The position numbers and the translations under genes were made by a program. From the NCBI RefSeq assembly GCF_006540305.1, contig NZ_BJOR01000001.1:2728001-2792000 (forward strand): 64,000 bases of DNA. The letters are read 5' to 3'. The stretch's first letter is position 1; each line of letters begins with the position of its first letter. Positions 25,203 through 34,587 of this stretch are shown here, one piece after another. Source of the stretch: Streptomyces sp. 6-11-2 (GTDB lineage Bacteria > Actinomycetota > Actinomycetes > Streptomycetales > Streptomycetaceae). The notes under the pieces were generated by a model. It saw only the letters and a program-made list of their open reading frames with translations. It did no database searches and was not told where the DNA came from.

Positions 25203-26525
25203 TTACTCCATCACGTCGATCGTGTACCGGTTCGTCTCCACGCCCGCCGCCGTCACCACCTGCACCTCGACCCGGCCCGGCTCCACGTCCGCCGGGACGG
25301 GAACGGTCAGTGCCGTGTCCGTGGGATTGCTGAAGCCGCCCGTGACCGGGACGAGGGGCACGTGCACGTTGACCGCGCCGATACGGACCCTCATACGGGC
25401 CAGCCGGTCGGCTCCCTGCGCACCCGGCGGGACGAACCCGGCGCCCCTGATCTCGATGTCGTCGCCCGTCCGGATCGGCGCGTCCAGGTCACCGGCCTCC
25501 CGGGCCCGGACCACCGACAGGACGACGGGACGGCCGCCGTCGGCGTACTTGCCCGCCAGGTAGGTCGCCGCCGACACCAGCACCACCACCGCCAGTCCCC
25601 ATGGCAGGTCGGGCAGTTGGTCCGGACGCCGGGCCAGTCGCACCGCCGCGAACGCCAGCGCGACGGCGCTGATCACCACGTACTGGATGTCCGCGAAGGC
25701 GCCCCGTCCCGAGTCGTCGGTCAGCAGGTCGGCCGCCCGCGGCCGGTCCGCGCGCACCTTCTGGAGCCGCTGCCCCAGCACTCGCAGTCCGACCACCCGC
25801 CGTACGAGGACCGCGATCCCGCACACCACGGCGAGCACGGTGACCACACCGGCGCCCCGGGCCAGGTCCAGCCCGGAGATCAGGGCGTCGCGCTCGGTGT
25901 GGTCCGAGGCCGCGGCGAGCCGGCCCGCCAGCACCAGCACGGCGTACGCCACGAACAGCACCCATCCCACGGCCACCGCGCGGGAGGTGGACAGCCGGTT
26001 GTCCTCGCCGATGACCGGAGCGAGCGCCCCGCCACGCCCCCGGTGGAGCCAGGACGCGGCCGTCAGCGCCCCGGCCACCAGGACGGCCGCCAGCAGTCCC
26101 GCCGTCCGGGCGGAACTCCAGCCCGCGCCGACCGCCGTCAACGCCTGCACCAGAAGCAGCAGTACGACCGCCGACCACACCGTGTACGCGGTCCAGCGCC
26201 ACAGCCGTGCCAGCCAGGCCTCGCCCTCGGCCCGCCCCCGCTCGGCGACGAGTTCAGCGGACTGCGTCAGTTCCTCCGAGACCCACTGCCGGGAGGCCGA
26301 CGCCGAGTGCGCCACGGCCGCCGGCAGGCCCTGACCCGCGGCGAACTCGTCCCGCTTGAGAAGGAACGCGGCAACGGCCTGCCGGTGTCCCGCACGCGCC
26401 CCGTGCGGGCAGTCCCCGCAGGTGCAGCCGCCCCCATGGGCGCCCACACCGCCTCTCGCCTCCTGCACCGCCACGCCCGACGCCCGCCTTCCCCGGATCC
26501 CGCGGCCCGGCCGCGGCAACAACAC
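25203..26525 (-). CDS. Multi-pass membrane protein with N-terminal Cys cluster and C-terminal beta domain
   Basis: The protein has about 440 residues. Near residue 34 lies CTCGDCPHG, a CxCxxC cluster that could bind metal. About six membrane helices follow between 120 and 330 (for example WSAVVLLLLVQALTAV and VVTVLAVVCGIAVLV). A soluble C-terminal part of about 95 residues is beta-rich (GDDIEIRGAGFVPPG and VEPGRVEVQVVTAAG) and resembles an IPT/Ig-like fold. I do not recognise the family. The start is uncertain; the open frame begins at 26525, but a later start just before the Cys cluster is possible. Confidence 0.7.
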   Translation of the reverse strand: MLLPRPGRGIRGRRASGVAVQEARGGVGAHGGGCTCGDCPHGARAGHRQAVAAFLLKRDEFAAGQGLPAAVAHSASASRQWVSEELTQSAELVAERGRAEGEAWLARLWRWTAYTVWSAVVLLLLVQALTAVGAGWSSARTAGLLAAVLVAGALTAASWLHRGRGGALAPVIGEDNRLSTSRAVAVGWVLFVAYAVLVLAGRLAAASDHTERDALISGLDLARGAGVVTVLAVVCGIAVLVRRVVGLRVLGQRLQKVRADRPRAADLLTDDSGRGAFADIQYVVISAVALAFAAVRLARRPDQLPDLPWGLAVVVLVSAATYLAGKYADGGRPVVLSVVRAREAGDLDAPIRTGDDIEIRGAGFVPPGAQGADRLARMRVRIGAVNVHVPLVPVTGGFSNPTDTALTVPVPADVEPGRVEVQVVTAAGVETNRYTIDVME

Positions 26526-26667
26526 CCCTACGCAGAAGGCGAATTGTGCCCTATACCGCCCCGCCCGCGTTCGCCAGGTCCGGTCAGCGGGGGTGAAGCC
26601 GGGAATGCTGTGTTGACCCGGCTACGGGAACCTCCGTATGGGCGAGATGTCCAGCGTGCCGAAGGCC

Positions 26668-27468
26668 TCAGGTCAGCAGGTCGGGTTCGCTGCGGCTGAT
26701 GTCCTGCCACAGGGGCTGGTAGTTGATCCACGCCACCAGGTCGCCGCCGAGCTGTTCCCGGGTCGCGACCGCCGGTTCGTGGTCGATCAGGACCGGTCGG
26801 CCCGCCGCCCGTGCGGTCAGCTGCACCTGACAGGAGCGTTCCATGGCCAGGAACCACCAGGCGGCGGCGTCCACCGAGTCGCCGACCGTCAGCAGGCCGT
26901 GGTTGCGCAGCACCAGTGCCTTGCGCGAGCCCAGCGCGGCCGCGATCCGGCGGCCCTCCTCCGCGTCGACGGCGACGCCGGTGTAGGAGCCGTAGACGGC
27001 GTGGTCCTCGTAGAAGGCGCAGCTCTCCTGGGTGATCGGGTCCAGGAGGTCACCGAGCGCCGCCAGGGCGCGGCCGTGCACCGAGTGGCAGTGGGCGACG
27101 GCGACGACGTCCGGGCGGGCGGCGTGGACCTGGGCGTGCACGGTGAACGCGGCCTGGTTGACGTGGTGGCGGCCCTCGAGCACCTGCCCGTCCTGGTTGG
27201 CGAGCACCAGGTCGCTCACGGTGACGTGCTGGAACGGCATCCCGAAGGGATTGACCCAGAAGCAGTCGCTGAACTCGGGGTCGCGCGCGGTGATGTGGCC
27301 GGAGACGCCGTCCTCGAGACCGGACCGGCCGAAGATCCGCAGGGCGCCCGCGAGCCGCTCCTTGCGGTACCGGCGCTCGTCGTCCACCGACTCGTGCATC
27401 GGCGGCATCGCGAACAGCAGCTTCTCGGTGGGCAGGGGCGGTGGCGGGGTGGGGGCGGGACCGTGCAT
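26668..27468 (-). CDS. Class II aldolase/adducin family protein
   Basis: The protein has 266 residues. The fold is marked by GLEDGVSGHITARDP near residue 52, the zinc-binding AHCHSVHGRALAAL (HxH) near 127 and a third His in LVLRNHGLLTVG near 186. All metal ligands appear present, so it is probably an active aldolase, dehydratase or decarboxylase-type enzyme on a phospho-sugar or similar substrate; the substrate cannot be told from sequence. The ATG at 27468 has GGAGGT immediately upstream, better than the open frame to 27834. It diverges from the PNPOx-fold gene. Confidence 0.88.
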   Translation of the reverse strand: MHGPAPTPPPPLPTEKLLFAMPPMHESVDDERRYRKERLAGALRIFGRSGLEDGVSGHITARDPEFSDCFWVNPFGMPFQHVTVSDLVLANQDGQVLEGRHHVNQAAFTVHAQVHAARPDVVAVAHCHSVHGRALAALGDLLDPITQESCAFYEDHAVYGSYTGVAVDAEEGRRIAAALGSRKALVLRNHGLLTVGDSVDAAAWWFLAMERSCQVQLTARAAGRPVLIDHEPAVATREQLGGDLVAWINYQPLWQDISRSEPDLLT

Positions 27469-27603
27469 GGGACCTCCGTCGCTGGATCGACGACGTACGG
27501 GCCGGAAGCTACCGCCGAACGGGTCAGGATACGAGCGCGGTGCGGTGAAGATGCCCGGCGGCACACCGGCTCCGCCGCCGAATGCCGCCAAACGCCGCCG
27601 AAT

Positions 27604-27622
27604 CCCGACAGAGGATGTCGGG
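27604..27622. promoter_or_regulatory. Inverted repeat upstream of PNPOx-fold gene
   Basis: CCCGACA and TGTCGGG are perfect inverted copies around GAGGA, ending 21 bp before the ATG at 27644. The position fits an operator or a leader hairpin that could hide the ribosome-binding site. Confidence 0.45.
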
Positions 27623-27643
27623 TATCGCCACCACACTCGGGGC

Positions 27644-28117
27644 ATGGCGACGAACTGGGCGGCCTTTGCCGCGGCGGAACCCGACCTGGCCACGACCGTC
27701 GAGCAGCGGTTCAGGGCGTTCCCGCACCACGTCCTGGTGACCCTGCGCGGGGACGGCTCCCCGCGCACCACGGGGCTGGAGGTGCGCTTCCTGAACGGCG
27801 AACTGTGGCTCGGCATGATGCCGGGCTCGCTCAAGGCGCTCGATCTGCGCCGGGATCCGAGGTTCGCGCTTCAGGCGAACCCGGGGCCGGACACCGCGAT
27901 GGCCGGCGGGGACGCGCGGATCGCCGGACGGGCGGTCGAGGTGGAGGATCCCGAGGTGAAGGGCGCGTACGTGAAAGAGGTGGAACCGCCGCAGCCGTTC
28001 CACCTCTTCCGCACCGAGTTGACGGAGGTCGTACGGACCTTCGTCGAGGACGACACGTTCCTGGTCGTCCAGGTCTGGAAGCCCGGAGAGCCGGTGCGGA
28101 CTCTCAGGCGGGCCTAG
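27644..28117 (+). CDS. Pyridoxamine 5'-phosphate oxidase-fold protein
   Basis: This 157-residue protein has the split-barrel flavin-binding pattern of the PNPOx family: HHVLVTLRGDGSPRTTGLEVRF at about 28-49, LWLGMMPGSLKALDLRRDPRFAL next, then AGRAVEVEDPEV. Such proteins bind FMN, F420 or haem; which one cannot be decided here. It is monocistronic and converges on guaA, with stops 8 bp apart. The start follows a 7-bp inverted repeat and has no strong ribosome-binding site. Confidence 0.82.
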   Translation: MATNWAAFAAAEPDLATTVEQRFRAFPHHVLVTLRGDGSPRTTGLEVRFLNGELWLGMMPGSLKALDLRRDPRFALQANPGPDTAMAGGDARIAGRAVEVEDPEVKGAYVKEVEPPQPFHLFRTELTEVVRTFVEDDTFLVVQVWKPGEPVRTLRRA

Positions 28118-28122
28118 GACCG

Positions 28123-29705
<1,583 letters not shown>

Positions 29706-29853
29706 GGGGTGCCTTCCGGCGGTCGGGGGGGTCCTTGTGCTTGTCGATTCTACCGACGTGGCCGCGGGTACCTCCCCGGCCGCCTCGACGACTGCAGCCC
29801 AGGGCGCCCCGTCCAGGGCCCGTCCAGTCATCCGTCTCATCAGGTGAACCGTG

Positions 29854-29882
29854 TTGGACGTCACGAACGGGCGAGGCATACT
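29854..29882 (+). promoter_or_regulatory. Promoter for the chorismate mutase leader
   Basis: TTGGAC (29854-29859) and CATACT (29877-29882) are separated by 17 bp, close to the vegetative consensus. Transcription would start at about 29888-29890, right at the ATG of the leader peptide, so the leader is probably leaderless. Confidence 0.6.
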
Positions 29883-29888
29883 GGTTTC

Positions 29889-29960
29889 ATGCTCGCGCAG
29901 ACGACCTTCGTGTTTACCTATGGCACCCGGCCCACCGGCTGCCATGGTCGTGCTGCTTGA
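29889..29960 (+). CDS. Leader peptide rich in Phe/Tyr, attenuator control of chorismate mutase
   Basis: This 23-codon frame ([20 protein letters not shown] and three more residues) contains Phe-Val-Phe-Thr-Tyr, encoded TTC GTG TTT ACC TAT. TTT and TAT are rare in this genome. It ends 19 bp before a 13-bp G/C hairpin and 111 bp before the gene for chorismate mutase, the branch enzyme toward Phe and Tyr. The layout is that of a transcription attenuator: ribosomes stalling at Phe or Tyr codons would prevent the hairpin from stopping RNA polymerase. Start at or near the transcription start means no ribosome-binding site is needed. This is inferred from layout and codons; no pairing alternatives were computed. 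Confidence 0.65.
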
Positions 29961-29979
29961 GCAACTGACAAGCGACTTC

Positions 29980-30016
29980 CCAGGCGCCCCGGGCCGACAA
30001 GGTCCGGGGCGCCTGG
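29980..30016 (+). terminator. Attenuator hairpin before chorismate mutase
   Basis: CCAGGCGCCCCGG and CCGGGGCGCCTGG form a perfect 13-bp stem with an 11-base loop. It follows the Phe/Tyr leader frame and precedes the structural gene by 55 bp. The tail (CGTTGTGGTCCTTGT) is moderately T-rich. Confidence 0.75.
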
Positions 30017-30071
30017 CGTTGTGGTCCTTGTCATCCGGGGCACCGCACCCGACCAGCGAGGAGCCCCCGCC

Positions 30072-30383
30072 ATGACCGCCACCGCAGCACAGCCCCAGAC
30101 CCCGGCAGCCACCACCGCCAGCGGCGCCCGTACCGACGAGGCCGCGAACGTGATCACCGGCGCCCGGGAGCGCATCGACACCCTGGACGACCGGATCATC
30201 GGCCTGATCCAGGAACGGATGGCCGTCTCCGCCGTGATCCAGGAGACCCGGATCGCCTCCGGGGGCCGGCGGGTGAACCTCTCCCGCGAGATGGAGATCC
30301 TGGGCCATTACAGGGACGCCCTGGGCAAGCCGGGCACAAGCCTGGCGATGACCTTGCTGGAACTGTGCCGGGGCAGGATCTGA
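30072..30383 (+). CDS. Chorismate mutase (AroQ fold)
   Basis: This 103-residue protein has a disordered Ala/Thr-rich start (about 1-30). The AroQ helical core has [19 protein letters not shown], then [10 protein letters not shown] and [17 protein letters not shown]. It rearranges chorismate to prephenate, the first committed step to Phe and Tyr, in the cytoplasm as a helical dimer. GAGGAG lies 8 bases before the ATG. A Phe/Tyr leader and terminator upstream indicate attenuation by aromatic amino acid supply. It diverges from guaA. Confidence 0.92.
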
Positions 30384-30631
30384 CCCCCTCGCCGCCGCCC
30401 TCCTCACCCTCCCCCGCTGTCATGTCCCACCGCTCTCACCCGTACGGCGCGTGACCGCCGCGCGGCCCGCCTCGTTGTCCCGGTGTCCGTGCCAGCCAGG
30501 GGCGGGCCCGAAAGAACCACGCGTGGATCTCGGGAGCGATGAGGCGTGCGGATCGTGCCGCGCGTCGTGGGACCTCGCTCCAGGGAAGTGACCGGACGGC
30601 AGGGGACAGCAGCCCGGTCGCCCAGATAAAC

Positions 30632-30661
30632 GGCCGGCTCCGGGGACGCCCGGGGCCGGCC
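30632..30661. terminator. 13-bp stem hairpin
   Basis: GGCCGGCTCCGGG and CCCGGGGCCGGCC pair, with one G-T wobble, around GACG. On the minus strand the stem is followed by GTTTATCT, so it could end the leftward GMC oxidoreductase transcript. Confidence 0.6.
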
Positions 30662-30941
30662 GGCGGAACGAAAAGCACACAAGGCCGGATCAAAGGGTTG
30701 CGGACGCCAGGTTCGTCCAGCACGATGCCCACACGGCTCCCGGCTCCGGACTCCCGCGCGGACGGCAGCGCCGCGGTGCGCCACCCGACCGCCAGAGGTC
30801 GAGACCCGGTGCGCCCCCCGTGCGCCGGGGAGCACGACGACGCATCACGACGCGCGGAGGGCACACGACAGCGACAGGCGGCGCAATCCCCCGGCGCCGC
30901 TCCCCCGGGCACCGGCGCTGCCCTGACGTCGGTGCCGACGA

Positions 30942-30980
30942 GAGAAGGGCCCCGCGGCCCGAGGCCGCGGGGCCCTTCTC
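30942..30980. terminator. 18-bp perfect hairpin terminator
   Basis: GAGAAGGGCCCCGCGGCC and its exact complement are separated only by CGA. This very strong bidirectional terminator lies between two convergent transcription units. Confidence 0.85.
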
Positions 30981-31091
30981 ATACGCGCTCGCGGACACGG
31001 ACCCCTGGGGATGTGACGCAGGACACATCAGAATCCTGCCGACCGGGGCGCAACCTTTCGCAGTCCCCCCGTGTCACATCAGCAGACGGAG

Positions 31092-31140
31092 GAGGACCTG
31101 TGCCAGGAGGGGGGTGCAGGTCCTCTCTCTTTTCTCTTTC
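31092..31140 (+). terminator. Rightward intrinsic terminator with T-rich tail
   Basis: GAGGACCTG (31092-31100) and CAGGTCCTC (31117-31125) enclose a G-rich loop and are followed by TCTCTTTTCTCTTTC, one of the few T-rich tails in the window. It reads rightward, yet no rightward gene lies between it and the terminator at 30942-30980, so it may end a small RNA. Confidence 0.6.
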
Positions 31141-31149
31141 CAGGCCTGT

Positions 31150-32943
31150 TCACCGGCGCCGTTCCTGCTTCTTCGGCGGCACCGGCGGCATCCCCAGGAA
31201 CGGCAGCCGCAGCGCGCCGAAGGCGTCCGCCGGGACCGCCGGATGCCGTGGCTCCACCGCCCGCAGTCGCTCGTAGGCCGCACCCTGCGGCGGGCGCGGG
31301 TCGGTCTCTCCCTTGTTGGGCCAGTACGACATCGCCCGCTCGGCCTGGGCGGTGATGGTCAGCGACGGGTTCACCCCCAGGTTCGCCGAGACCGCGGCGC
31401 CGTCGACGACCGAGATGCCGGGGTGGCCGTAGAGGCGGTGGTACGGGTCGATGACGCCGGTCTCGCGCGAGGCGCCGATCGGGCAGCCGCCGAGGAAGTG
31501 CGCGGTGAGCGGGGTGCCCATCAGCTCGCCGACGTTGGACCCGGCGAAGCCGTTGATCTCGGCGGCGAGCGCGGTGGCGCTTTCCGTGGCGGCCCTGATC
31601 TGCTTGGGGTTGGGCGCGCCGTGCCCCTGGCGGGCCGTGAGCAGTCCCCTGCCCACACCGTCCGGCTTCAGGTACGTGGTCAGGGAGTTGTCCAGGGACT
31701 GCATTACCAGGCCGATGATGGTCCGCTCCGACCAGCGGCGGTTGGACAGGGAGCGCAGGACCAGCAGGGGGTGGCGGACGGCGTTGGCCAGCCAGGCCGC
31801 CGCTCTGGACGAGCCCTCGGCGTACGGGACCTGGAGGATCGACAGGCCGCCCATCGAGTTGGAACCCTTGCCGTAACGGACCGGCTCGATGTGGGTGTTC
31901 TCGTCCGGATGGATGGAGGACGTGATGGCGACGCCCCGGGTGAAGTCCGCCTTCGGCTCCCCGGTCGCCTTCCGGTAGCGCCGGTCGTCGGTCTGGGCGC
32001 CCACCAGAGCCTCGGAGTTGGTGCGGGTCAACTCACCCAGCCGCGCGGACAGATGGGGCAGCCGACCGCTCGCCCTCATGCGGTGCAGCAGCGTCTGGGT
32101 GCCGTAGGTGCCGGCCGCCAGGACCACCCTGCGCGCGGTGAACAGGCGGCCGGCGCCCTTCTTCTTGTTGTCGGTGGGAAGCGTGGCGACCGCGTAGCCG
32201 CCGCGTGAGTCGTCCGTGACCGACACGACCGTCGTCATGGGGTGGACCACCGCGCCCGCCTTCTCGGCGAGGTACAGGTAGTTCTCGTTCAGGGTGTTCT
32301 TGGCGCCGTGCCGGCAGCCCGTCATGCACTCGCCGCACTCGGTGCAGGCCTTGCGGTCCGGTCCGGCCCCGCCGAAGTAGGGGTCCGCGACCCGCTCGCC
32401 CGCCTTCGCCGTCGTCGTGCCGTCGGCATCCTCGCCATCGCCGAAGAACACTCCGACCGGCGCCATGTGGAAGGTGTCGCCGACGCCCATCCGCTGTGCG
32501 GCGGCCTTCAGATGGACGTCGGAGGGGGTCGTCGTCGGGTTGAGCCGCACGCCGAGCATGCGCCGCGCCTGGTCGTAGTACGGCGTCAACTCGTCCTGCC
32601 AGTCGGTGATGTCCCGCCACTGAGGGTCGTCGAAGAAGGGTTTCGGCGGTATGTAGAGGGTGTTGGCGTAGTTCAGGGAGCCGCCGCCGACGCCCGCGCC
32701 GGCCAGCACCATGACGTTGCCGAGCAGGTGGATGCGCTGGATGCCGTACATGCCGAGCTTCGGGGCCCACAGGTAATTCTTCAGGTCCCAGGAGTTCTTC
32801 GGCAGGGTCTCGCGGGTGAAGCGGCGGCCCGCCTCCAGGACGCCGACGCGGTAGCCCTTCTCGGTCAGGCGGAGCGCGGAGACCGATCCGCCGAACCCCG
32901 ACCCCACGACGATGACGTCGTAGTCGTAGCGGTCTTGAGACAC
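31150..32943 (-). CDS. GMC family oxidoreductase (cholesterol oxidase-like)
   Basis: The protein has 597 residues. FAD binding is shown by VIVVGSGFGGSVSALRLTEKG at the N-terminus and by GVGGGSLNYANT. A Cys cluster CTECGECMTGCRHGA near residue 200 suggests an iron-sulphur or zinc site not found in classic GMC enzymes but seen in this bacterial subfamily. The C-terminal HFLGGCPIGAS, GHPGISVVDG and NPSLTITAQAERAM are typical GMC closing motifs. The substrate, an alcohol or sterol-like compound, is unknown. The GTG has AAGGAG about 5 bases upstream. It follows gabD2 by 30 bp and is surely co-transcribed, so it may act on the same alcohol or aldehyde pathway. Confidence 0.88.
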   Translation of the reverse strand: MSQDRYDYDVIVVGSGFGGSVSALRLTEKGYRVGVLEAGRRFTRETLPKNSWDLKNYLWAPKLGMYGIQRIHLLGNVMVLAGAGVGGGSLNYANTLYIPPKPFFDDPQWRDITDWQDELTPYYDQARRMLGVRLNPTTTPSDVHLKAAAQRMGVGDTFHMAPVGVFFGDGEDADGTTTAKAGERVADPYFGGAGPDRKACTECGECMTGCRHGAKNTLNENYLYLAEKAGAVVHPMTTVVSVTDDSRGGYAVATLPTDNKKKGAGRLFTARRVVLAAGTYGTQTLLHRMRASGRLPHLSARLGELTRTNSEALVGAQTDDRRYRKATGEPKADFTRGVAITSSIHPDENTHIEPVRYGKGSNSMGGLSILQVPYAEGSSRAAAWLANAVRHPLLVLRSLSNRRWSERTIIGLVMQSLDNSLTTYLKPDGVGRGLLTARQGHGAPNPKQIRAATESATALAAEINGFAGSNVGELMGTPLTAHFLGGCPIGASRETGVIDPYHRLYGHPGISVVDGAAVSANLGVNPSLTITAQAERAMSYWPNKGETDPRPPQGAAYERLRAVEPRHPAVPADAFGALRLPFLGMPPVPPKKQERRR

Positions 32944-32973
32944 GTGCTCTCCTTGTCGGGAACGAGGTGCCGG

Positions 32974-34587
32974 CTAGCGGAAACGGCACGCCTTCATCAG
33001 CCTCAGGCTGCGGCTCATGAACGCCGCGTACCTCTCGTCGTCCATGCCGAGCGACGGGGCCATGGGCAGCAGCCGCTGGTGGGCCAGGGTCTGGGCCTCG
33101 GTGTACTTGAGGATGCCCTCGGAGCCGTGCCGGCGGCCGAGGCCCGAGTCCTTCATGCCGCCCATCGGCGACTGGACACTGCCGTAGGCGGGGGCGTAGC
33201 CCTCGTTGATGTTGACCGTGCCGGTACGCAGCCGGGCGGCGACCTCGCGGCCGCGGCGGGCGTCCTTCGTCCAGACGGACGAGTTCAGGCCGTACGGCGT
33301 GGAGTTGGCGCGCTCGATCGCCTCGTCGTCGCTCGTGAAGCGGTAGACGGAGACGACCGGGCCGAAGGTCTCCTCCGTACACACGGCCATCGGGGCCTCG
33401 ACGCCGTCGAGGATGGTGGGCTCGAAGAAGTACGGGCCGATGTCCGGGCGGGCGACGCCCCCGGCCACCACCTTGGCGCCCTTGGCGACGGCCTCCTCCA
33501 CATGCCGGGTGACGGTCTCCAGTTGCCGCTCCCCGACCAGCGAGCCCATGTCGGCGCCGTACGCCAGGGACGTGCCGAGCCGCATCGCCCGCGTACGGGC
33601 CGCGAACCGCTCCAGGAACGCGTCCGCGACCGCCTCGTGGACGTACAACCGCTCGATGGAGATGCACAGTTGGCCGGCGGAGGAGAAGCAGGCGCGGACC
33701 GCTCCGGCCGCCGCCTTCTCGATGTCGGCGTCCTGGAGCACCAGCATGGCGTTCTTGCCGCCGAGTTCGAGGGAGACGCCGACCAGGCGGGCGGCGGCGC
33801 TCCGGGCGACCTCGCGTCCGGTGCGGGTGGAGCCGGTGAAGGAGACGTAGTCGGCGTGCTTGACGACCTCGGGGCCGACGACCGGCCCCTCGCCGATGAC
33901 GACCTGGAACACCTCGGCGGGCAGCCCCGCCTCGACGAGCAGGTCGCGGGCCCACAGCGCGGTCAGGCAGGTCTCGGTGTCGGGCTTCATCACCACCGCG
34001 TTGCCCGCGACGAAGGCGGGCAACGCGTCGCCGGCGGACAGCTCCAGGGGGTAGTTCCACGGGGCGATCTGGCCCACCACCCCGCGCGGATGGCGCAGTT
34101 CGGTGACGCGCGTGAGGGTGGGGATGGCGCCCGTGTGCCGCTTGGGCTTCAGGTAGGCGGCGGCGCGCCGGCCGTAGTGCCGGGCGGCGACGGCGACGGC
34201 CTGGACCTCCTCGTGCGCGTGCAGGCGGGCCTTGCCGGTCTCCAGCTGGATCAGGTCCAGGACCTCGGCCTGGCGGGCGAGCACCAGGTCGTGGAAGCGG
34301 AGCAGGACGGCCGCGCGCTGCCGTACCGGGACCCGGGCCCACACCGCCTGTGCGGCGCGGGCCCGTTCGTAGGCGCCGGCCACGTCCTCGGGGGTGGACT
34401 CGGGCAGGTCGGCGAGCTTGTCGCCCGTGAACGGCGTGTGGTTGGCGGTCCGCCCGGATCCGGCGACGCCCTTGGTGAGCCGGGCGACCAGCTCGGGGGT
34501 CACCACGTCGGCGGCGGTACGGGCCCCCGCGGGGGCGGGGGCCTGGGGATTGGTGCCGGTCTTCGCCGGGGCCTGCGCGTCCGTCAT
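32974..34587 (-). CDS. gabD2: Succinic semialdehyde dehydrogenase
   Basis: This 537-residue NAD(P)-dependent aldehyde dehydrogenase has PWNYPLELSAGDALPAFVAGNA (cofactor loop), FTGSTRTGREVA, the catalytic Glu in LELGGKNAML and the catalytic Cys in SAGQLCISIERLY. All catalytic residues are present. The overall pattern matches the mycobacterial GabD2 type, which oxidises succinate semialdehyde to succinate in the GABA/2-oxoglutarate bypass. The N-terminal ~25 residues are Ala/Pro-rich. It is the first gene of a two-gene operon with the GMC oxidoreductase; the upstream space holds two repeat elements. Confidence 0.88.
   Translation of the reverse strand: MTDAQAPAKTGTNPQAPAPAGARTAADVVTPELVARLTKGVAGSGRTANHTPFTGDKLADLPESTPEDVAGAYERARAAQAVWARVPVRQRAAVLLRFHDLVLARQAEVLDLIQLETGKARLHAHEEVQAVAVAARHYGRRAAAYLKPKRHTGAIPTLTRVTELRHPRGVVGQIAPWNYPLELSAGDALPAFVAGNAVVMKPDTETCLTALWARDLLVEAGLPAEVFQVVIGEGPVVGPEVVKHADYVSFTGSTRTGREVARSAAARLVGVSLELGGKNAMLVLQDADIEKAAAGAVRACFSSAGQLCISIERLYVHEAVADAFLERFAARTRAMRLGTSLAYGADMGSLVGERQLETVTRHVEEAVAKGAKVVAGGVARPDIGPYFFEPTILDGVEAPMAVCTEETFGPVVSVYRFTSDDEAIERANSTPYGLNSSVWTKDARRGREVAARLRTGTVNINEGYAPAYGSVQSPMGGMKDSGLGRRHGSEGILKYTEAQTLAHQRLLPMAPSLGMDDERYAAFMSRSLRLMKACRFR

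Follow-up and report, generated by a model that had tools for sequence, protein, structure and literature searches.

A leader with phenylalanine and tyrosine codons, probably an attenuator, precedes chorismate mutase in 13 actinomycete families

In 13 actinomycete families the gene for chorismate mutase (CM) is preceded by a short leader reading frame with phenylalanine and tyrosine codons, by a hairpin (P2) that begins at those codons and by a terminator-like hairpin. Far the best reading of this element, and one that we hold with considerable confidence, is a Phe/Tyr-responsive ribosome-mediated transcription attenuator that controls CM. The initial annotation had proposed the classical layout of Phe/Tyr attenuation before CM, a proposal supported by the conserved core, the terminator, the recurrence in 13 families and the computed folds. 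A conserved ORF with end-product codons ahead of a biosynthetic gene is the mark of an attenuator at the level of sequence, and such an ORF, predicted to be translated, is found here. Conservation, codons, the two hairpins, P2 covariation and the alternative folds are directly computed; the switch behaviour, meaning the start site, stalling, antitermination, termination and the role of Phe and Tyr as signals, is what we infer. The control point would be the enzyme where Phe/Tyr synthesis parts from that of tryptophan, in antibiotic producers and mycobacteria, with relevance to the aromatic precursors available for natural products.

The leader locus and its parts

The window, that is the whole analysed stretch of 64,000 nt from Streptomyces sp. 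6-11-2 (NZ_BJOR01000001.1, positions 2,728,001 to 2,792,000), carries the CM locus with guaA as its divergent neighbour. The parts, in window coordinates, are as follows.

29854..29859 (+), putative −35 TTGGAC, weak (3/6 vs TTGACA)
29877..29882 (+), putative −10 CATACT, 17-nt spacer from the −35, then 6 nt to the leader ATG
29889..29960 (+), leader peptide ORF of 23 residues, ATG at 29889
29890..29963 (+), P1 stem, 29890-29906 with 29946-29963, from the fold and the family leaders
29907..29909 (+), first Phe codon TTC (TTC in 93/106 genus loci)
29913..29923 (+), TTTACCTATGG, regulatory Phe TTT (29913) and Tyr TAT (29919), near invariant (TTT-ACC-TAT in 103/106 genus loci)
29920..29945 (+), P2 hairpin AUGGCA-CCGG / CCGG-UGCCAU, beginning inside the Tyr codon at its second base
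29935..29992 (+), candidate antiterminator, 29935-29947 with 29980-29992, enclosing the hairpin 29954-29959/29969-29974
29928-29933 with 29991-29996 (+), additional pairs of a longer candidate antiterminator, from the stalled-ribosome fold
29980..30016 (+), terminator-like hairpin, 16 bp, 5-nt loop, −39.5 kcal/mol, with the U-poor tail CGTTGTGG
30058..30063 (+), GAGGAG, likely Shine-Dalgarno of CM, from the sequence
30072..30383 (+), chorismate mutase, AroQ type, 103 aa

The hairpin is followed, as first annotated, by the chorismate mutase gene, identified by Pfam, NCBIfam and PDB sequence matches (PF01817; NF005894 equivalog, 8.8e-37; closest solved structure by sequence, Rv0948c). TTGGAC, the 17-nt gap, CATACT and the ATG of the 23-residue leader likewise lie where they had been placed. 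Their reading as a promoter holds in part: hexamers and spacing are present, but the −35 is weak and a sigma-70 scan of 29700-30400 reported no promoter. Because the putative −10 stands only six nt before the leader ATG, a leaderless transcript is predicted, with a start that the sequence suggests to be at or next to that ATG. A −10-like hexamer occurs 6 or 7 nt 5′ of the leader start codon in 96 of 106 genus loci, and a script for a short ORF with the F/Y motif and a −10-like hexamer directly before it finds this pair at 102 of 107 genus loci (0 on the reverse strand, 0.0 in shuffles); the arrangement at genus CM loci is not chance.

The hairpin had been annotated as a single one of 13 bp, which is an undercount: it has 16 pairs (14 GC, one AU and one GU), and while it does follow the leader, two further hairpins also exist. 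The region 29854..30072 folds to −116.1 kcal/mol (z = −5.25), an energy as low as which is reached in 0 of 200 shuffles. Against Rfam, window positions 26000-34000 give five matches at E<=1, every one under its gathering score; two miRNA families overlap the terminator-like hairpin below gathering (28.8 of 89 and 24.3 of 97 bits), and seven leader loci give none at gathering score. Further along, at 30905-30984 (+), lies a sub-threshold match to the Streptomyces sRNA family Scr3202 (36.3 bits, gathering 52).

Conservation in Streptomyces and distribution across the class

CM is present in 147 of 150 genomes of the genus, and our genus set comprises the CM upstream regions from 109 of those 147. 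The core TTY-AYN-TAY-GG stands ahead of CM in 106 of the 109; the other three are two contig ends (G073 and G002) and G088, whose variant (TTTAGCTAT) was recovered later. Aligned at the core, this set reaches an identity of 1.0 there, 0.85 over the remaining ORF, 0.66 from the stop to the terminator and 0.96 in the terminator 3′ arm; past that arm it falls to 0.54 (10-40 nt) and then 0.42 (40-60 nt). Around the −10, where the spacing is variable, it is 0.56, and 5′ of the promoter 0.43. No part of the spacer is better conserved than the core and the terminator. Aromatic codons and hairpin are thus conserved amid drifting flanks, the pattern for which the initial annotation had suggested looking, and the layout extends to 13 families. 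In the wider family, CM is matched in 51 of 61 genomes, and all 21 other-genus CM loci that were read carry the core with TTT.

An exact pattern, TTTACCTATGGNACCSG, was discarded as a test of distribution: it is too strict, omitting the GGCAACC variant and other peptide types, and its 14 matches in 296 class genomes all fall in the window's genus. A class search matched CM in 238 of 394 genomes, many of them weakly; from the strong matches we hand-picked 58 loci for spread over families. The leader element is present in 48 of the 58, of which 45 were found by script and three (L259-L261) were counted by eye, their frames being longer than the filter; no leader element was seen in the other 10. 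The frames called by script in L240 and L278 were judged spurious and removed from the class table. A strict script (−10 plus F/Y motif in a 320-nt window) finds the element at 35 of the 58 loci, with 0 on the reverse strand and an average of 0.3 for the summed shuffles. The element occurs in 13 families, and we limit the claim to these rather than to the whole class, the survey having covered the strong CM matches among the class genomes.

Two family-level patterns may be added. The ten CM loci without a visible leader (L240-L243, L272, L276-L280) all belong to family f4, and by analogy with the Phe-Tyr-Phe leader at aroF of Corynebacterium glutamicum one might speculate that the control point has shifted in part of this group. 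The f18 leaders (L244-L263) are in many cases longer, with a maximum of 39 codons among those scored.

For the structural comparisons we assembled 99 leaders: the 45 class loci, 17 of the 26 loci L167 and L169-L193, 22 family loci (21 from other genera plus G088) and 15 genus loci (the window and 14 random draws). Of those 26 loci, L188, L189 and L191 were not placed by the query, L181 lies at a contig end, L185 was left out as its motif sits in a longer frame, and no leader motif was seen in L177, L179, L180 and L182. Since a Phe/Tyr motif was the criterion for choosing every leader, finding Phe and Tyr in them carries no independent weight.

A protecting hairpin begins at the aromatic codons

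P2 was localized by scanning 34-nt windows over the 99 leaders. Across the 13 families the mean z lies between −1.7 and −4.9 at an offset of −6 from the aromatic codon. From 18 nt upstream outwards the well-populated families show values close to zero, with single-member families ranging as far as −1.9; a second dip, at the terminator, is seen in 12 of the 13. P2 begins at the aromatic codons in all 13 families, the position expected of a protecting hairpin that a ribosome at those codons would overlap.

Between families the pair identities of P2 differ on both sides, and its own arms beat the mean of arms swapped across families in 65 of 69 distinct pairs (−18.75 vs −13.19 kcal/mol), with little own-arm advantage in families f48, f31 and f47. 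Inside the family P2 is nearly invariant, and so is uninformative on covariation there. P1 forms at least five pairs in 35 of 37 family leaders, with its own arms better than swapped ones in 31 of 36, and is paired in 69.9% of cells of a 32-sequence alignment. In this alignment P1, P2 and the terminator together are paired in 86.2% of cells, compared with 33-42% when slid, and their covariation score (0.130 vs 0.106) lies above all 500 column shuffles. Cells changed on both sides number 29 vs 15.1 in column shuffles, whereas the pairs changed on both sides (9 vs 8.1) and the pair types (28 vs 27.5) are not above the shuffles of the same alignment. RNAalifold on 105 sequences, also tried, recovered only part of P2 and the terminator.

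The same attenuator might respond to Phe alone (or to Tyr alone), the other codon being a bystander, a version that we consider possible, if the less likely one. According to the available text of PMC11802643, the Phe-Tyr-Phe leader of Corynebacterium glutamicum aroF answers Phe limitation and not Tyr; against a single signal, P2 has both codons at its base in 13 families, although this is not independent evidence in leaders picked by their Phe/Tyr motif.

A rare UUU codon is retained

At the regulatory Phe site, where TTC is equally allowed, TTT is used in 45 of 45 class loci, 17 of 17 among L167 and L169-L193, 105 of 106 genus loci and 21 of 21 other-genus family loci. These counts left the choice between TTT and TTC open, unlike the presence of Phe and Tyr. 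Both TTT and TAT are rare, as had been annotated: in 34 long ORFs of the window, TTT encodes 3 of 328 Phe residues and TAT 15 of 308 Tyr residues. The TTT share of Phe codons is 0.9% in long window ORFs, 1.1% in Pseudonocardia loci and 6.7% in mycobacteria-like loci.

The rare UUU is retained in virtually all leaders found, across 13 families, although one tRNA-Phe reads both UUU and UUC. It is conceivable, although we would not favour the idea, that the attenuator reads the decoding of U-ending codons (wobble speed, or the modification state of tRNA-Phe and tRNA-Tyr) beyond charging. If so, both tRNA modification and amino-acid supply would feed into the control of aromatic synthesis. A rare synonymous codon kept across families may also offer a clean case for asking if decoding rate governs the choice of regulatory codons where a single isoacceptor exists.

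Terminator, candidate antiterminator and the proposed switch

A hairpin of at least 7 pairs lies no more than 90 nt from the stop codon in 98 of the 99 leaders, the exception by script being L247. In the family the terminator covaries, with both partners of one pair replaced in 8 of 32 sequences. Its tail is U-poor in the window, and T-rich tails occur in other lineages (e.g. L173, L174). The energies from a first automatic terminator finder, which mistook the hairpin at many loci, were discarded.

We propose that transcription would begin at or next to the leader ATG and that a ribosome would initiate on the leaderless RNA. With Phe-tRNA and Tyr-tRNA charged, the ribosome would pass TTT and TAT, reach the stop codon and cover the RNA to about 29970, an edge taken from the size of the ribosome footprint; the 16-bp hairpin at 29980-30016 would then form and RNA polymerase would terminate ahead of CM. 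With Phe- or Tyr-tRNA scarce, the ribosome would stall at TTT or TAT, covering the P2 5′ arm, and the freed P2 3′ arm (29935-29947) would pair with the terminator 5′ arm (29980-29992), such that the terminator could not nucleate in time and CM would be transcribed. In the case of no ribosome, P1 and P2 would both form and leave the terminator free, giving basal termination.

Folding the window RNA left free by the ribosome, at an assumed footprint edge, gives P1 and P2 without a ribosome; the pairing 29935-29947/29980-29992 with the inner hairpin 29954-29959/29969-29974 (−20.7 kcal/mol) with the Tyr codon in the A site; the longer antiterminator form (−31.6 kcal/mol) with TTT in the A site; and the terminator (−40.6 kcal/mol) with the ribosome at the stop codon. 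As a stall with TTC, the first Phe codon, in the A site also yields this longer form and not P2, the folds fit stalling at any of the three aromatic codons and not at TTT and TAT alone. Once the complete terminator has been transcribed it is the lowest fold even under a Tyr stall, so the antiterminator would need to act kinetically, as it does in classical trp attenuation.

The alternative pairings that the initial annotation had suggested computing can therefore be arranged as a classical switch in the window folds, but the window's own antiterminator does not outdo shuffles, whether by duplex energy (−17.1 vs −16.9, p 0.48) or by nascent fold (−20.7 vs −20.1). Over the leaders the duplex test is mostly negative: p<0.05 in 24 of 98, with the own pairing above the cross-family swap in 60 of 98. 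In the family the antiterminator pairs are kept in 89.9% of cells vs 29-48% when slid, and their covariation is not above column shuffles (124/500 reach the score, and 8 of 18 pairs never vary). In 84 of 98 leaders the fold sequesters 8 nt or more of the terminator 5′ arm, and mean sequestration exceeds shuffles in 11 of 13 families, the others being f18 (18 leaders) and f14 (four), where it is no greater than in shuffles. Since few leaders beat shuffles, covariation is null and f18 and f14 are negative, we count the antiterminator step as inferred. In one f18 leader, L253, the nascent fold holds a stem GGUC..CGCUC/GAGCG..GACC just 5′ of the terminator in place of the usual antiterminator.

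Ribosome-mediated control could alternatively be exerted not by an intrinsic terminator but through translation initiation of CM, mRNA decay or Rho, which we regard as unlikely. The U-poor tail in the window would suit such control, as would the two families, f18 and f14, without an antiterminator beyond chance. The hairpin, though, ends about 40 nt 5′ of the CM Shine-Dalgarno and hence does not cover it, and T-rich tails in some other lineages also favour transcription attenuation.

Leader peptides differ while codons and RNA persist

Within the family the peptide FTYGTGxSGCHG is strongly conserved, which would be expected of TnaC-like nascent-peptide arrest, with FTYG...GCHGRAA stalling the ribosome on binding Phe, Tyr or a pathway intermediate. 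We find this improbable. In G006, G100, G188 and G191 the second half of the ORF lies in another frame while its nucleotides are kept, so this half is conserved as RNA and not as peptide. CM loci across the order and class, moreover, share the layout with different peptides (MLANRRFFYGYGPGSLAIVGC, MSSRARRFSYGHRIVPAGLVVVR, VLNAQRRFFYGYRPAVPVV, ...FYGGRARSPLCR, ...DHFYQGPGTVPALPRI, VLCSREFFYALTGVRSGLGC and VFDQRFFYYGTGSPAAVGRA); although the peptide differs outside the family, the Phe/Tyr codons and the hairpin at them persist, the codons holding the same place before P2.

The leader accompanies chorismate mutase

We scanned genome contigs with a leader-only DNA pattern, GATTTTTCTAYGGSTACCGG, which was drawn from these leaders and contains nothing of CM. 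It matches at least 119 stretches, including ones in Mycobacterium, Mycolicibacterium, Mycolicibacter, Pseudonocardia, Actinomycetospora and Rhodococcus; among the 80 listed and fetched, CM lies just 3′ in 79 and a contig edge in one. The core pattern, allowed up to three mismatches, matches the genome of the window once. There, a covariance model trained on 32 family leaders finds 29884-30018 with 137.9 bits; its seven other matches in that genome reach at most 34.4 bits, one of them at full length. In 10 of 13 genomes the model matches best at the CM leader; seven of these belong to the genus, and the rest are G489, G490 and G491, which represent another family, absent from the model. In G002 the best match is on a different contig from its CM, and in G008 and G488 the model gives terminator-like matches only, the G488 leader (L167) being visible by eye.

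A separate gene for a small protein or an sRNA, ending in a terminator of its own and having no part in CM control, would look alike as a short transcript with a strong hairpin, but we consider it most improbable given that 79 of the 80 fetched pattern matches (of at least 119) stand just before CM and that the model's sole high score in the window's genome is at CM (next 34.4 bits).

Weak full-length matches of the leader model away from CM occur at G000:C1:4320398-4320533 (−, 34.4 bits) and G489:C1:10045178-10045308 (−, 38.1 bits). Some genus genomes also hold second, diverged CM matches (G074:C1:142480, G038:C3:64096, G001:C619:9501, and two extra in G107).

Relation to known attenuators

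The mechanism proposed here is already known; as a member of its class the CM leader appears undescribed in the searchable literature. A term search finds it absent from the main text of PMC13236596, PMC4633059, PMC9094748, PMC2965389 and PMC4895711, and we found no description in the open PMC literature, where it may sit unnamed in supplementary transcriptome tables, which lay outside the search. The new facts are the breadth of the CM leader and its fixed UUU codon.

In Escherichia coli, the pheL-pheA leader peptide, which contains Phe, controls a chorismate mutase-carrying enzyme through the charging of Phe-tRNA. The present element resembles pheL-pheA in its Phe-containing leader and its proposed control of an enzyme with chorismate mutase; it differs in peptide and RNA, is predicted to be leaderless, mixes Phe with Tyr and precedes a monofunctional AroQ CM. 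This E. coli attenuator is also stated in the available text of PMC11802643.

Mycobacterial cysteine-rich leaderless sORFs are likewise candidate attenuators in actinomycetes, but carry cysteine codons and go with sulfur genes. Canestrari 2020 reportedly concerns these sORFs. Their role as attenuators is proposed in the portions of PMC4633059 available. In Streptomyces, trpL, leuL and ilvL are leaderless short ORFs with product codons, followed by a hairpin and a biosynthetic gene, as described in the accessible parts of PMC8079986 and PMC1262725; the CM leader shares this order of leaderless ORF, hairpin and gene, and differs in the amino acids that would be sensed. Eight leaders are listed for S. 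lividans in the accessible part of PMC8079986, none of them for Phe or Tyr.

A further related system is aroR-aroF of C. glutamicum (Neshat 2014), where a Phe-Tyr-Phe leader mediates ribosome-dependent attenuation according to the available text of PMC11802643 and PMC4046766. Both are actinomycete Phe/Tyr leaders at an aromatic gene, but that gene is aroF (DAHP synthase) in C. glutamicum and CM here. A 2005 survey, in the accessible part of its text, observed no conserved structure for phenylalanine and tyrosine operons (PMC1262725), and the CM leader would supply the actinomycete Phe/Tyr attenuator that this survey did not observe.
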